In this document: piece after piece, positions 19,284 through 24,971 of the stretch
How positions within the stretch are numbered: position 1 is the first letter of the stretch
Layout of the letters: the number at the start of each line of letters is the position of its first letter
Assembly (NCBI RefSeq): GCF_000695095.2
Contig: NZ_CP011454.1
Span: 4,526,001-4,590,000 of the forward strand
Direction of reading: 5' to 3'
Length of the DNA stretch: 64,000 nt
Source of the DNA: Gemmatimonas phototrophica
Lineage (GTDB): Bacteria > Gemmatimonadota > Gemmatimonadetes > Gemmatimonadales > Gemmatimonadaceae
Translations under genes and position numbers: made by a program
The notes under the pieces: generated by a model
What the model saw: only the letters and a program-made list of their open reading frames with translations
What the model was told of the DNA's origin: nothing
Database searches by the model: none

Positions 19284-20327
19284 TCAGCTGACCTCGCTCG
19301 GCCATGTGCATTCTCGTCCTATTGCCCGCGCCACCGCCTGCACCTGCTGCATCAACTGCGTGAATGCACTGAATTCGAGACTCTGCTCGCCGTCGCTCTT
19401 GGCGCATTTGGGGTCGGGGTGCACTTCTACAATGAGGCCGTCGGCACCCGCCGCCACGGCCGCGAGCGCCAGTGGCGTGACCAAGTGCGCACGACCGCCG
19501 GCGTGTGAGGGATCCACAATCACCGGCAAATGCGTCTCGCGCTTGAGCACGGGAATGGCCGCCACGTCCATCGTGTTACGCGTCGCGGTTTCGTAGGTGC
19601 GAATACCACGCTCACACAACATCACATCGCCGTTTCCCTGCGCCAGCACATACTCGGCGGCCATCAGTAACTCGGTAATGGTGCCGCTGAGTCCGCGCTT
19701 GAGCAGCACCGGGCGCTGCACTTTTCCCACTTCACTCAGCAGCGGAAAGTTCTGCATGTTGCGCGCGCCAATCTGCATCACGTCGGCGTAGCTCGCGACC
19801 AGCTCCACCTGCCGCGGGTCCATCACTTCCGTCACAATGGGCATGCCGGTTTCCGCGCGCACATCGGCGAGAATCTTGAGGCCGTCTTCGCCCATCCCCT
19901 GAAACGCGTACGGGCTCGAGCGCGGCTTGAACGCCCCGCCGCGCAACAGTCGCGCGCCCGCCTGCTGCACCGCCCGCGCGGTATCGAACATCATCTCGCG
20001 CCCTTCCACGCTGCACGGCCCCGCCATTACCACCACATCGCGGCCGCCAATCACCGTGTCGGCCGGGTCGCCCAGTCGAATGGCGGTATTCCCCACCGAG
20101 AACTCGCGCGACGCAATCTTGTAGGGCTTGAGCACGGGCATCACGCGTTCCACGCCGTCCAGCTGCGTAAGCCCATGTTCGCTGAGCGCCCCTTCGTCGC
20201 CAATGCACCCCACAATGGTGCGTTGCTCGCCGCGGGACACGTGGGTGCGCAGCCCCGCCGCCTCCACATGTTCAATGATGCGGTCGAGCGCTTCGGGGGT
20301 GATGCCGGCGGTAGTGACGATGATCAT
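19284..20327 (-). CDS. aroF: 3-deoxy-7-phosphoheptulonate synthase (DAHP synthase) with N-terminal regulatory domain
   Basis: 347 residues. First step of the shikimate pathway: phosphoenolpyruvate plus erythrose 4-phosphate to DAHP. Residues 1-75 form the ferredoxin-like regulatory domain seen in the Thermotoga-type enzyme ([27 protein letters not shown]), which binds Tyr/Phe for feedback inhibition. The barrel has [35 protein letters not shown], and VDPSHAGG. Upstream on the same strand are a leader peptide and terminator hairpin that suggest attenuation by charged tRNA-Phe/Tyr. pheA is divergent, so the two Phe-pathway genes share a control region. Confidence 0.96.
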
Positions 20328-20393
20328 GTGCGGTCCTCAGGAGTGGTGGTCAATGAGCCACCGAGGAACCCGCCCCGCCCAGCCCCCGGAAAC

Positions 20394-20429
20394 AACCGAG
20401 GCCCGTGCGGTTGCACGGGCCTCTCGGTT
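20394..20429 (-). terminator. Attenuator hairpin upstream of aroF
   Basis: On the minus strand gaggcccgtgc, loop aacc, gcacgggcctc forms an 11-bp perfect stem (20398-20423), extended by aacc/ggtt across a small bulge, and is followed by a short T-rich run (ttgttt). The 5' arm contains GCCCGTGC, which can instead pair fully (one G-U) with GCATGGGC at 20476-20483 inside the leader ORF, giving an antiterminator. It lies between the leader stop and aroF ATG (67 bp upstream). Confidence 0.75.
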
Positions 20430-20448
20430 GGTCGGGAGCGTCAGCCTG

Positions 20449-20529
20449 TCAGCTGCGCATGCCAATCATGCCGGAGCCCATGCGGGTCGGCACGTAATAA
20501 AATCGGCAGGCGAAGAAGTGACGCGTCAT
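20449..20529 (-). CDS. aroF leader peptide, 26 residues, Phe/Tyr-rich (attenuation)
   Basis: Minus-strand ORF ATG at 20529 to TGA at 20449, encoding MTRHFFACRFYY followed by VPTRMGSGMIGMRS. Five of residues 5-12 are Phe or Tyr (FF, F, YY), the end products of the pathway that aroF starts. This is the classic composition of a leader peptide whose ribosome stalls when charged tRNA-Phe/Tyr is scarce. Segment pairs are visible: gccgaccc with gggctccggc (1:2), GCATGGGC with GCCCGTGC (2:3), and the terminator stem (3:4). No Shine-Dalgarno sequence is present; the promoter places the likely transcript start at the ATG, so it may be leaderless. Translation is inferred from sequence. Confidence 0.8.
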   Translation of the reverse strand: MTRHFFACRFYYVPTRMGSGMIGMRS

Positions 20530-20536
20530 ACCACGG

Positions 20537-20565
20537 AGGCTACGCCAGGGCGTTCTGTGTGTCAA
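20537..20565 (-). promoter_or_regulatory. Sigma-70-like promoter for the aroF leader
   Basis: On the minus strand TTGACA (20560-20565) and TAGCCT (20537-20542) are separated by 17 bases. The -35 box is perfect; the -10 box is weak. Seven bases after the -10 comes the A of the leader ATG at 20529, so transcription may start at the initiation codon. The -35 box abuts the pheA start (20567) on the other strand. Confidence 0.6.
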
Positions 20566-20566
20566 T

Positions 20567-21172
20567 ATGTATGTCACCATGACTGGGACAGCCTCCGAAA
20601 CCGTGACCGAATCCGACTCACCGCGCGTCGCTTTTCAGGGCGAACTTGGCGCGTTCAGCGAAATGGCCATCCGGCAGCAGTGGCCCAGCGGCGCGGTAGC
20701 CGTGCCCTGCCTCACCTTCCCGGAGGCGGTGGCTCAGGTCATGGATGGACGGGCCCATTTCGGCATCATCCCCGTGGAAAACGCCATCGTCGGCCCCGTC
20801 AAAGTGGCCATGGACGCGCTCGCCGCCGCGGGGGACGCCCTGGTTGTGCGGGCCGAAACCCGGGTGCCGGTGCACCTCTGTCTGATGGCGCCGGCGGGAG
20901 CCACCCTGGCCGAGCTGCGGGAGATTCACAGTCACCCCGTCGCCCTCGCCCAGTGCCGCATCTTCTTCGCGCGTCACGGCTGGCTGCAAAGTGCTCCCCA
21001 CGCCGACACCGCCGGCGCCGCTCGCGACGTGGCCCAGCGGGGTGACCGCACCCAAGGGGCCGTCGCCAGCGAAATGGCCGCCGAACGGTACGGCCTCGAA
21101 GTCATTGCCCGCCGCATCGAAGACGTGGCCGCCAACTGGACGCGGTTCGTGGTGGTGAGCCGGGCGGGGTGA
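20567..21172 (+). CDS. pheA: Prephenate dehydratase lacking the ACT domain
   Basis: 201 residues. Converts prephenate to phenylpyruvate in Phe synthesis. The PDT catalytic domain is complete: VAFQGELGAFSEMA, GIIPVENAIVGPV, and the TRF motif in NWTRFVVVS close to the C-terminus. Typical monofunctional enzymes continue for about 80 residues into a Phe-binding ACT domain (ESRP motif); here the stop follows TRF by six residues and a repeat element begins 30 bp later. Phe feedback on this enzyme is therefore probably lost. Starts at 20567 or 20579 are both possible; neither has a ribosome binding site. Divergent from aroF and its leader. Confidence 0.9.
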   Translation: MYVTMTGTASETVTESDSPRVAFQGELGAFSEMAIRQQWPSGAVAVPCLTFPEAVAQVMDGRAHFGIIPVENAIVGPVKVAMDALAAAGDALVVRAETRVPVHLCLMAPAGATLAELREIHSHPVALAQCRIFFARHGWLQSAPHADTAGAARDVAQRGDRTQGAVASEMAAERYGLEVIARRIEDVAANWTRFVVVSRAG

Positions 21173-23228: not shown

Positions 23229-23369
23229 ATCCCGCCAACCCCCCTATTCACATGCGTATAGGTATGTAAAGCAATTCCCGACCAGCCCGACGCATTTTGC
23301 CGACTGTAGGGCGATGTCCCCATCGGCACCCTGTGAGTGTCTTTTTACCCATTCACAGCGGGAGCGGCG

Positions 23370-24971
23370 ATGAAGCTGGTCTTTGTACAGCCCAATTATC
23401 ATGCAGGTGGTGCGGAAATCGCCGGCAACTGGCCCCCGGGCTGGGTCGCTTACATTGGCGGTGCCCTCAAGCACGCCGGCTTCACGGACATCACGTTCGT
23501 GGACGCGATGACCAACCACATCGATGATGAGTCGCTGCGCCAGCGTCTCATTGAGCTCAAGCCTGATGCGGTGCTGGCCACGGCCATCACCCCCATGATC
23601 TATCAGGCGCAGCGCACCCTGCAGATTGCGCGCGAAGTCGCGCCGCAGGCGCATACGATTCTGGGTGGCATCCACCCCACCTTCATGTATCAGCAGGTGT
23701 TCAACGAAGCGCCGTGGATTGACTACATCGTGCGCGGCGAAGGCGAAGAAATCATCGTTGAGCTCATGCAGCACCTGCGCGACGGCACCGCGCTCGCCAC
23801 CCGTCGCGACATCCGCGGCATTGCCTTCGTGGAAGATGGCCAGGTGGTGGCCACACCGGCGCGCCCTCCCATTGCCAACCTCGACGACCTCACGCCCGAC
23901 TGGTCGCTGCTGGAGTGGAACAAGTACATCTACATTCCGCTAAACTGCCGGGTGGCGGTGCCCAACTTTGCGCGCGGCTGCCCGTTTACCTGCCGCTTCT
24001 GCTCGCAGTGGAAGTTCTGGCGCAAGTATCGCACGCGCGATCCCAAGAAGTTCGTCGACGAAATTGAAACGCTGGTGCGCGATCACAAGGTGGGCTTCTT
24101 CATTCTGGCCGACGAAGAACCCACCATCAACAAGAAGAAGTTCATCGCGCTCTGCGAAGAGCTCATTGCCCGCGACCTGCCGGTACACTGGGGTATCAAC
24201 ACCCGCGTGACCGACATTCTACGCGACGAGAAGGAACTGCCCCTCTACCGCAAAGCCGGTCTGGTGCACGTATCGCTGGGTACCGAAGCCGCGGCGCAGC
24301 TCAAGCTCGATCGCTTCCGCAAGCAGACCACGCTCGAGCAGAACAAGCGCGCCATCAAGATGCTGAAAGACGCCGGCATGATTGCCGAAGCGCAGTTCAT
24401 CATTGGGCTCGAAAACGAAACGCAGGAAACTATCGAGGAGACGTACAAGTACTCCCAGGACTGGCAGCCCGATATGGCCAACTGGAACATGTACACCCCG
24501 TGGCCCTTCGCCGAACTGTTCCAGGAACTCGGCGAGCGCGTGGAAGTACGCGACTACGCCAAGTACAACTTCGTCACGCCCATCATTCAGCCTGACGAGA
24601 TGACACGCGATCAGGTGCTGAAAGGCGTTCTGCGCAACTACGCCCGCTTCTACGCCAAGAAAGCGTTCCTGTCGTATCCGTGGCAAAAGGATCCGTTCAA
24701 GCGCAAATACCTGCGCGGTTGTCTGCGCGCCTTCGCCAAGACCACCATCAACAAGAAGTTCTACGACCTGGAGCGGCTCAAGTTCAACGGCACCGGCCTC
24801 GAGTCGGACTTCGGCTTCGACGAAGACAAGGTGTTCACGCGCGAAGAGCTGCGCACCATGTCCGAAGCGCGCCCCGAGTTTGCCGCCGATGTGGACTTCT
24901 CCGGTAGCGTCCCCGTACTCGGCCATGCCGCCGTTCGGCCGCAGGAAGAGGAAGCCGTCCGTGCCTGTTGA
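23370..24971 (+). CDS. bchE: Anaerobic Mg-protoporphyrin IX monomethyl ester oxidative cyclase BchE
   Basis: 533 residues. BchE forms ring E of (bacterio)chlorophyll without oxygen, using B12 and a radical SAM cluster. The N-terminus QPNYHAGGAEIAGNWPP, the segment LGGIHPTFMYQQV, radical SAM cysteines in CPFTCRFCSQWKFW (Cys204, 208, 211), ILADEEPTIN and LVHVSLGTEAAAQLKLD follow purple-bacterial BchE almost word for word. Start at 23370 has a gggag site ten bases before it. It leads a five-gene operon with hemN overlapping its end by 11 bp. This is a chlorophyll-specific enzyme, so the organism is probably phototrophic or descends from one. Confidence 0.93.
   Translation: MKLVFVQPNYHAGGAEIAGNWPPGWVAYIGGALKHAGFTDITFVDAMTNHIDDESLRQRLIELKPDAVLATAITPMIYQAQRTLQIAREVAPQAHTILGGIHPTFMYQQVFNEAPWIDYIVRGEGEEIIVELMQHLRDGTALATRRDIRGIAFVEDGQVVATPARPPIANLDDLTPDWSLLEWNKYIYIPLNCRVAVPNFARGCPFTCRFCSQWKFWRKYRTRDPKKFVDEIETLVRDHKVGFFILADEEPTINKKKFIALCEELIARDLPVHWGINTRVTDILRDEKELPLYRKAGLVHVSLGTEAAAQLKLDRFRKQTTLEQNKRAIKMLKDAGMIAEAQFIIGLENETQETIEETYKYSQDWQPDMANWNMYTPWPFAELFQELGERVEVRDYAKYNFVTPIIQPDEMTRDQVLKGVLRNYARFYAKKAFLSYPWQKDPFKRKYLRGCLRAFAKTTINKKFYDLERLKFNGTGLESDFGFDEDKVFTREELRTMSEARPEFAADVDFSGSVPVLGHAAVRPQEEEAVRAC

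Follow-up and report, generated by a model that had tools for sequence, protein, structure and literature searches.

The aroF gene of Gemmatimonas phototrophica, which encodes a DAHP synthase, is very probably controlled by a ribosome-mediated transcription attenuator. This reading of the sequence was based on the class of the leader ORF, both helices (2:3 and 3:4) and the promoter geometry of a leaderless start, which are conserved and covarying across the Gemmatimonadota. The window analyzed was a stretch of 64,000 nucleotides from the complete genome of 4,716,552 bp, and its aroF locus was compared with the upstream regions of orthologous genes from related genomes (about 100 loci). Leader attenuation of DAHP synthase had been proposed in an earlier note made from the window, and was supported by the conservation of ORF, helices and promoter across the phylum. 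The aroF switch very likely turns DAHP synthase on only when Phe/Tyr run short. In the open-access literature, no description of a leader-peptide attenuator in Gemmatimonadota was found, in line with the earlier note, which had known of no case in this lineage. Leader-peptide attenuation gains firm comparative footing in this phylum, and does so at the step that commits carbon to the aromatic pathway.

Leader ORF and promoter of aroF

The aroF gene was located at 19284–20327 on the minus strand, with its ATG start codon at 20327. The product, a DAHP synthase of the TIGR01361/PRK08673 type, possessed an N-terminal ferredoxin-like domain and matched PF18152 and PF00793. A Shine–Dalgarno-like GAGGA (20334–20338, minus strand) was present in the sequence 6 nt 5' of the aroF ATG, outside the terminator hairpin. 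Therefore, the hairpin should act on transcription and not on the translation of aroF.

Upstream of aroF, a short ORF rich in codons for the end products was found at 20449–20529 on the minus strand (26 codons, MTRHFFACRFYYVPTRMGSGMIGMRS). A 26-codon minus-strand ORF with FF, F and YY in residues 5–12 had been described beforehand, and the ORF, which runs from 20529 to 20449, indeed contained the aromatic residues F5, F6, F10, Y11 and Y12. The control codons F10-Y11-Y12 (TTT TAT TAC; 20494–20502, minus strand) end 9 nt 5' of strand 2. In 59 non-redundant loci, aromatic residues accounted for 21.9% of the leader frame, compared with 3.4% and 4.7% of the other two frames. Tyr occurred in 58 of the 59 leaders, Phe in 41 and Trp in 25, and the last aromatic residue before the RNA switch was Tyr in 40, Phe in 16 and Trp in 3. 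Since Tyr was found in nearly every leader and was mostly the last aromatic, it appeared to be the constant sensor residue. The FF pair at residues 5–6 was not conserved even within the genus, with FS, CY or FY in neighbours; what stayed constant in the genus leaders was a run of aromatic residues that stops 9 nt ahead of the antiterminator strand. Thus, of the Phe/Tyr leader described in the earlier note, the aromatic cluster with its constant Tyr was conserved, but the FF pair was not. Apart from the aromatic run, the leader peptides varied freely between species, as in MSRTIAYAYYYYFATPTPGRSWRRTR, MNVTTRAYGYYYYGLPSGSPGFVARG and MSTHRASFFFGYFWFSYRPEGRELEDARA. Strand 2 followed the last aromatic codon at a distance of 9 nt in almost every member of the genus and of about 9–13 nt in most other leaders. 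This is roughly the stretch that a ribosome would cover when its A site is on that codon.

The leader promoter was recognized by its geometry, with a −35 element TTGACA (20560–20565, minus strand) and a −10 element TAGCCT (20537–20542, minus strand), separated by a 17-nt spacer and followed after 7 nt by the leader ATG. This arrangement (TTGACA-N17-TAGCCT-N7-ATG) placed the transcription start at about the A of the ATG, so that the transcript would begin at the start codon, without a Shine–Dalgarno sequence. A generic promoter scan of the window did not find the leader promoter, because TAGCCT matches just 3 of the 6 positions of TATAAT. In most of the 59 non-redundant loci, a TTGAC box peaked 35–38 nt 5' of the leader ATG. 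Moreover, TANNNT was present near the leader ATG in 33 of the 59 loci, 24 of which also had a −35 element of at least 4/6, so this combined promoter test was passed by 24 of 59 leader ATGs compared with 2 of 370 control ATGs. Many loci failing the combined test had TTGAC with a less canonical −10 element. A Shine–Dalgarno-like sequence preceded the leader ATG in only 4 of the 59 loci. The leader mRNA is probably leaderless, as predicted from this geometry. The leaderless start had been proposed before as unusual; the promoter geometry fitted it and was conserved, but such starts are not unusual, as they are documented in Streptomyces and C. glutamicum (PMC8079986; PMC4046766). Within the open-access literature on leaderless mRNA, the sole relevant statement on Gemmatimonadota concerned anti-SD classes.

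Terminator and antiterminator helices

A GC-rich hairpin (GAGGCCCGTGC-AACC-GCACGGGCCTC) was present at 20423–20398, after the leader ORF as the earlier note had stated, and it was the only terminator-like site in 20300–20700. Accordingly, an intrinsic terminator lies between the leader ORF and aroF, made of strand 3 (GAGGCCCGTGC; 20413–20423, minus strand) and strand 4 (GCACGGGCCTC; 20398–20408, minus strand). The stem can be extended by CAACC (20430–20426) and GGTTG (20397–20393), followed by UUU, and the U tract was short and poor in the genus (GGTTGTTTCC). Strand 3 is common to the terminator and the antiterminator. The other half of the antiterminator, GCATGGGC (20483–20476), belongs to strand 2 (GCATGGGCTCCGGCA; 20469–20483, minus strand) and pairs at 8 of 8 positions with GCCCGTGC (20420–20413), including one U-G pair, in agreement with the full pairing with one G-U that had been noticed before. 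Strand 1 (TGCCGACCC; 20484–20492, minus strand) would, judging from sequence and fold, pair with strand 2 when no stalled ribosome is present. The 138-nt leader of the window folded at −68.3 kcal/mol, with a z of −5.5 against dinucleotide shuffles.

The covariation of the helices was evaluated in a structure-free alignment of 34 sequences (A1), in which short windows were joined by an A8 spacer and the variable spacer was removed. For the 2:3 helix, 85% of the cells were paired, 41 were changed on both sides, and 0 of 500 shuffles reached the same value, while pairing with slid partners fell to 28–47%. The 3:4 terminator helix showed 97% of the cells paired and 61 changed on both sides, again with 0 of 500 shuffles as high. 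Both stems thus covaried strongly in relatives, which had been suggested as a check of the proposal; the shuffles were made without correction for relatedness, and the sequence classes of the arms nonetheless recurred in different families. The terminator arms fell into distinct classes (CCCGTG, GCTCCCG, CCCTCG, CCTCCG and others), each with its own matching strand 2. Furthermore, the 2:3 pairing of the 59 species had a mean energy of −18.8 kcal/mol with their own arms versus −15.4 kcal/mol with permuted arms, and none of 20,000 permutations was as strong; a control stretch at the ORF start gave −9.6 kcal/mol. A mutually exclusive 2:3 antiterminator with evolutionary support was therefore found.

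When the footprint of a stalled ribosome was masked, 2:3 formed in 53 of 59 transcripts ending after strand 3, and in the full free RNA the terminator formed in 56 of 59 loci. The free transcript of the window ending after strand 3 preferred 2:3. The 1:2 stem was seen in the window fold, and its register differed between groups. In a fixed register, 68% of the cells were paired and 46 of 500 shuffles were as high, and the z of the regional fold had a mean of −0.9 and a median of −0.5. These values weakly support the 1:2 stem, a candidate protector or pause hairpin at the downstream edge of the control codons. With Rfam at a permissive E-value, no family reached its gathering score in the window leader, and the highest scores were those of Thr_leader (18.8 bits against a gathering score of 55) and Leu_leader (18.3 bits against 50).

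Distribution, Trp leaders and alternative explanations

Counting the window, 17 aroF orthologues of the genus could be read upstream, and all of them had the same leader–terminator layout. Of 80 further loci of the phylum, 61 carried a terminator preceded by an ORF with a Phe/Tyr/Trp cluster. The conservation in relatives of an ORF with Phe/Tyr codons upstream of aroF, also named beforehand as a check, was thus established, and the absence of a conserved ORF or stems that the earlier note had given as a refutation was not what the relatives showed. In the remaining 19 of the 80 loci no leader was found by the scan; two of these were a cut-off contig and a distant outgroup. The nearest DAHP synthase loci outside the Gemmatimonadota (about 65 with readable upstream DNA, from Chloroflexota, Planctomycetota, Omnitrophota and others) had no credible leader, and also served as a false-positive control for the scan. 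Two AT-rich hits among them (L168 and L170) were rejected as chance. In the window genome, no leader was visible in about 200 nt upstream of trpE, nor was one found at the second DAHP synthase (L022). One genome contained two aroF copies: at the second copy (L064, G300:C110) the promoter and terminator were kept while the leader ORF read ATG ATA GAG TAA; this leader had apparently decayed, and that of the other copy (L065) was intact.

In five genomes from the order of the window genome, the other DAHP synthase possessed Trp-rich leaders (WWWPW and similar) upstream, with the same architecture. These were loci L036, L125, L127, L129 and L131, found in genomes G055, G056, G139, G161 and G137, and the motifs in the five genomes were LWWWPW, QWWWPW, RWWWLA and CWWSWP. 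In G055, the DAHP synthase with the Trp leader heads a trpEGDCFBA operon, and the second DAHP synthase has the Phe/Tyr leader RFYSFATYFTYAAYF. As read from the sequences, the Trp versus Phe/Tyr leaders are a natural specificity swap. The leader codons thus go with the branch of the pathway, as expected from ribosome-mediated attenuation.

These findings bear on other explanations of the layout. It is very improbable that the leader belongs to another attenuator class (a T-box, a riboswitch or a terminator under protein control) and that the ORF is incidental. A covarying terminator/antiterminator pair alone does not reveal what flips it, but the Rfam search came near no gathering score, the aromatics were concentrated in a single frame, the distance from the last aromatic to strand 2 was nearly fixed though the peptide sequences varied, and the trp-linked DAHP synthase copy had Trp-rich leaders. 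An equally small probability was given to the short ORF encoding a functional trans-acting peptide, with the hairpin as the ordinary terminator of its own small transcript. Such a peptide has a precedent in peTrpL of Sinorhizobium, a leader peptide for which a role in trans has been proposed (PMC7298713); however, the peptide outside the aromatic cluster was not conserved between genera, and the 2:3 pairing was kept by compensating changes, for which a peptide acting in trans would have no use. Besides attenuation, the leader peptide may also act in trans.

The least probable explanation, with hardly any weight, was a chance meeting of an aromatic-rich short ORF and an unrelated terminator. 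The only point in its favour was that a single 8-bp complementarity is not rare in GC-rich DNA. Against it stood the conservation and covariation across the phylum, and the scan outside the phylum, which gave only the two chance hits mentioned above. Since conservation across the phylum extended to the ORF, to the helices and to the spacing of the promoter, chance was refuted.

Proposed mechanism and comparison with known systems

In the proposed attenuation mechanism, RNA polymerase would start at, or about one nucleotide from, the leader AUG, and a ribosome would load on the 5' end without a Shine–Dalgarno site and translate the 26-codon peptide. When charged tRNA-Tyr and tRNA-Phe are plentiful, the ribosome would pass codons 10–12, strand 2 would be hidden under the advancing ribosome or taken up by strand 1, and strand 3 would pair with strand 4, so that transcription would end before aroF. 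In a shortage of charged tRNA-Tyr (or Phe), the ribosome would stall with F10, Y11 or Y12 in the A site and its leading edge covering strand 1. Strand 2, which starts about 9 nt past Tyr12, could then pair with the emerging strand 3; the terminator would not form, and aroF would be transcribed. The actual 5' end, the stalling, the termination and the Tyr/Phe response are what we infer for the aroF leader. Because the window RNA ending after strand 3 prefers 2:3, termination under plenty would have to rely on kinetics, with early folding of 1:2, or on the movement of the ribosome over strand 2.

Attenuation of DAHP synthase by a Phe/Tyr leader is already known in kind, and the direct precedent is aroR/aroF of C. 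glutamicum (Neshat et al. 2014). As reported in PMC11802643 and PMC4046766, its leader contains Phe-Tyr-Phe and responds to Phe limitation but not to Tyr. Both systems have a leader with Phe and Tyr codons upstream of the DAHP synthase gene, with read-through on amino acid limitation in C. glutamicum. In contrast, Tyr was constant and usually the last aromatic in the present leaders, which belong to a different phylum, and the parallel, drawn from those papers, is a functional one. The lack of such leaders at the nearest non-Gemmatimonadota DAHP synthase loci suggests that the Gemmatimonadota leader originated independently of aroR. The E. coli genes aroF and aroH are instead controlled by the repressors TyrR and TrpR (PMC11802643).

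The present leader was also similar to those of enterobacterial pheA (pheL) and pheST, which have a Phe-rich leader peptide, alternative hairpins and an intrinsic terminator (PMC11802643 and general knowledge). It was different from them in that the target was the first enzyme of the common pathway, the cluster was a mixture of Tyr, Phe and Trp, and the start was probably leaderless. Leaderless leader peptides are known for trpL, leuL and ilvL of Streptomyces lividans (PMC8079986) and for ilvBNC of C. glutamicum (Morbach 2000, in PMC4046766). In these Actinobacteria, as predicted here, the attenuator ORF starts at the 5' end of the transcript without a ribosome-binding site, but the phylum, the amino acids and the genes are different. 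The four-strand logic was that of the trp leader attenuators (RF00513), and the Trp-rich leaders before DAHP synthase-trpEGDCFBA are functionally of this type, although the window leader had no Rfam match at the gathering score. According to a 2010 survey, leader peptide systems were known just in Proteobacteria and Actinobacteria before Firmicutes were added by that survey (PMC2965389).

A more tentative extension, possible rather than probable, is that these leaders form a leaderless attenuator family through which Gemmatimonadota control entry into the aromatic pathway, with codons tuned to the isozyme (Tyr/Phe, and often Trp, where the DAHP synthase is linked to pheA; Trp where it heads the trp operon). 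In such a family, mixed F/Y/W codons might sense a shortage of any aromatic, and the leaderless start might have been selected for instant ribosome loading on the emerging 5' AUG and for its coupling to the polymerase as early as the first codon. Dozens of variants that differ in antiterminator sequence, in the spacing of the promoter and in the leader codons (Tyr, Phe, Trp) occur naturally in the phylum, and they allow direct comparison of codon specificity, of the ribosome footprint and of what leaderless initiation contributes. In addition, the leader layout is a usable annotation rule for short ORFs overlooked by gene callers.

Some observations were made on neighbouring genes and the host. 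A divergent Phe-pathway gene, pheA (20567–21172, plus strand), adjoins the leader, and most aroF loci of the genus are likewise adjoined by a divergent pheA homologue. It encodes the prephenate dehydratase catalytic domain alone, without a match to the Phe-binding ACT domain, and its relatives in the genus seem to stop at the same position; Phe feedback may be left to DAHP synthase and the attenuator. In 20529–20579, only about 40 bp separate the leader ATG from the pheA start on the other strand, so the promoters of the aroF leader and pheA must overlap. A ATATTGACA-like stretch in this region is common to most genus members. Models for leuA (TIGR00973) and ilvB (TIGR00118) had no match in the window genome and had matches in all 14 control genomes; from sequence, the organism is possibly a branched-chain amino acid auxotroph. 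About 3 kb from the aroF locus, the window contains bchE (23337–24971, plus strand; TIGR02026, 809 bits), for the anaerobic Mg-protoporphyrin ester cyclase, and borders photosynthesis genes.
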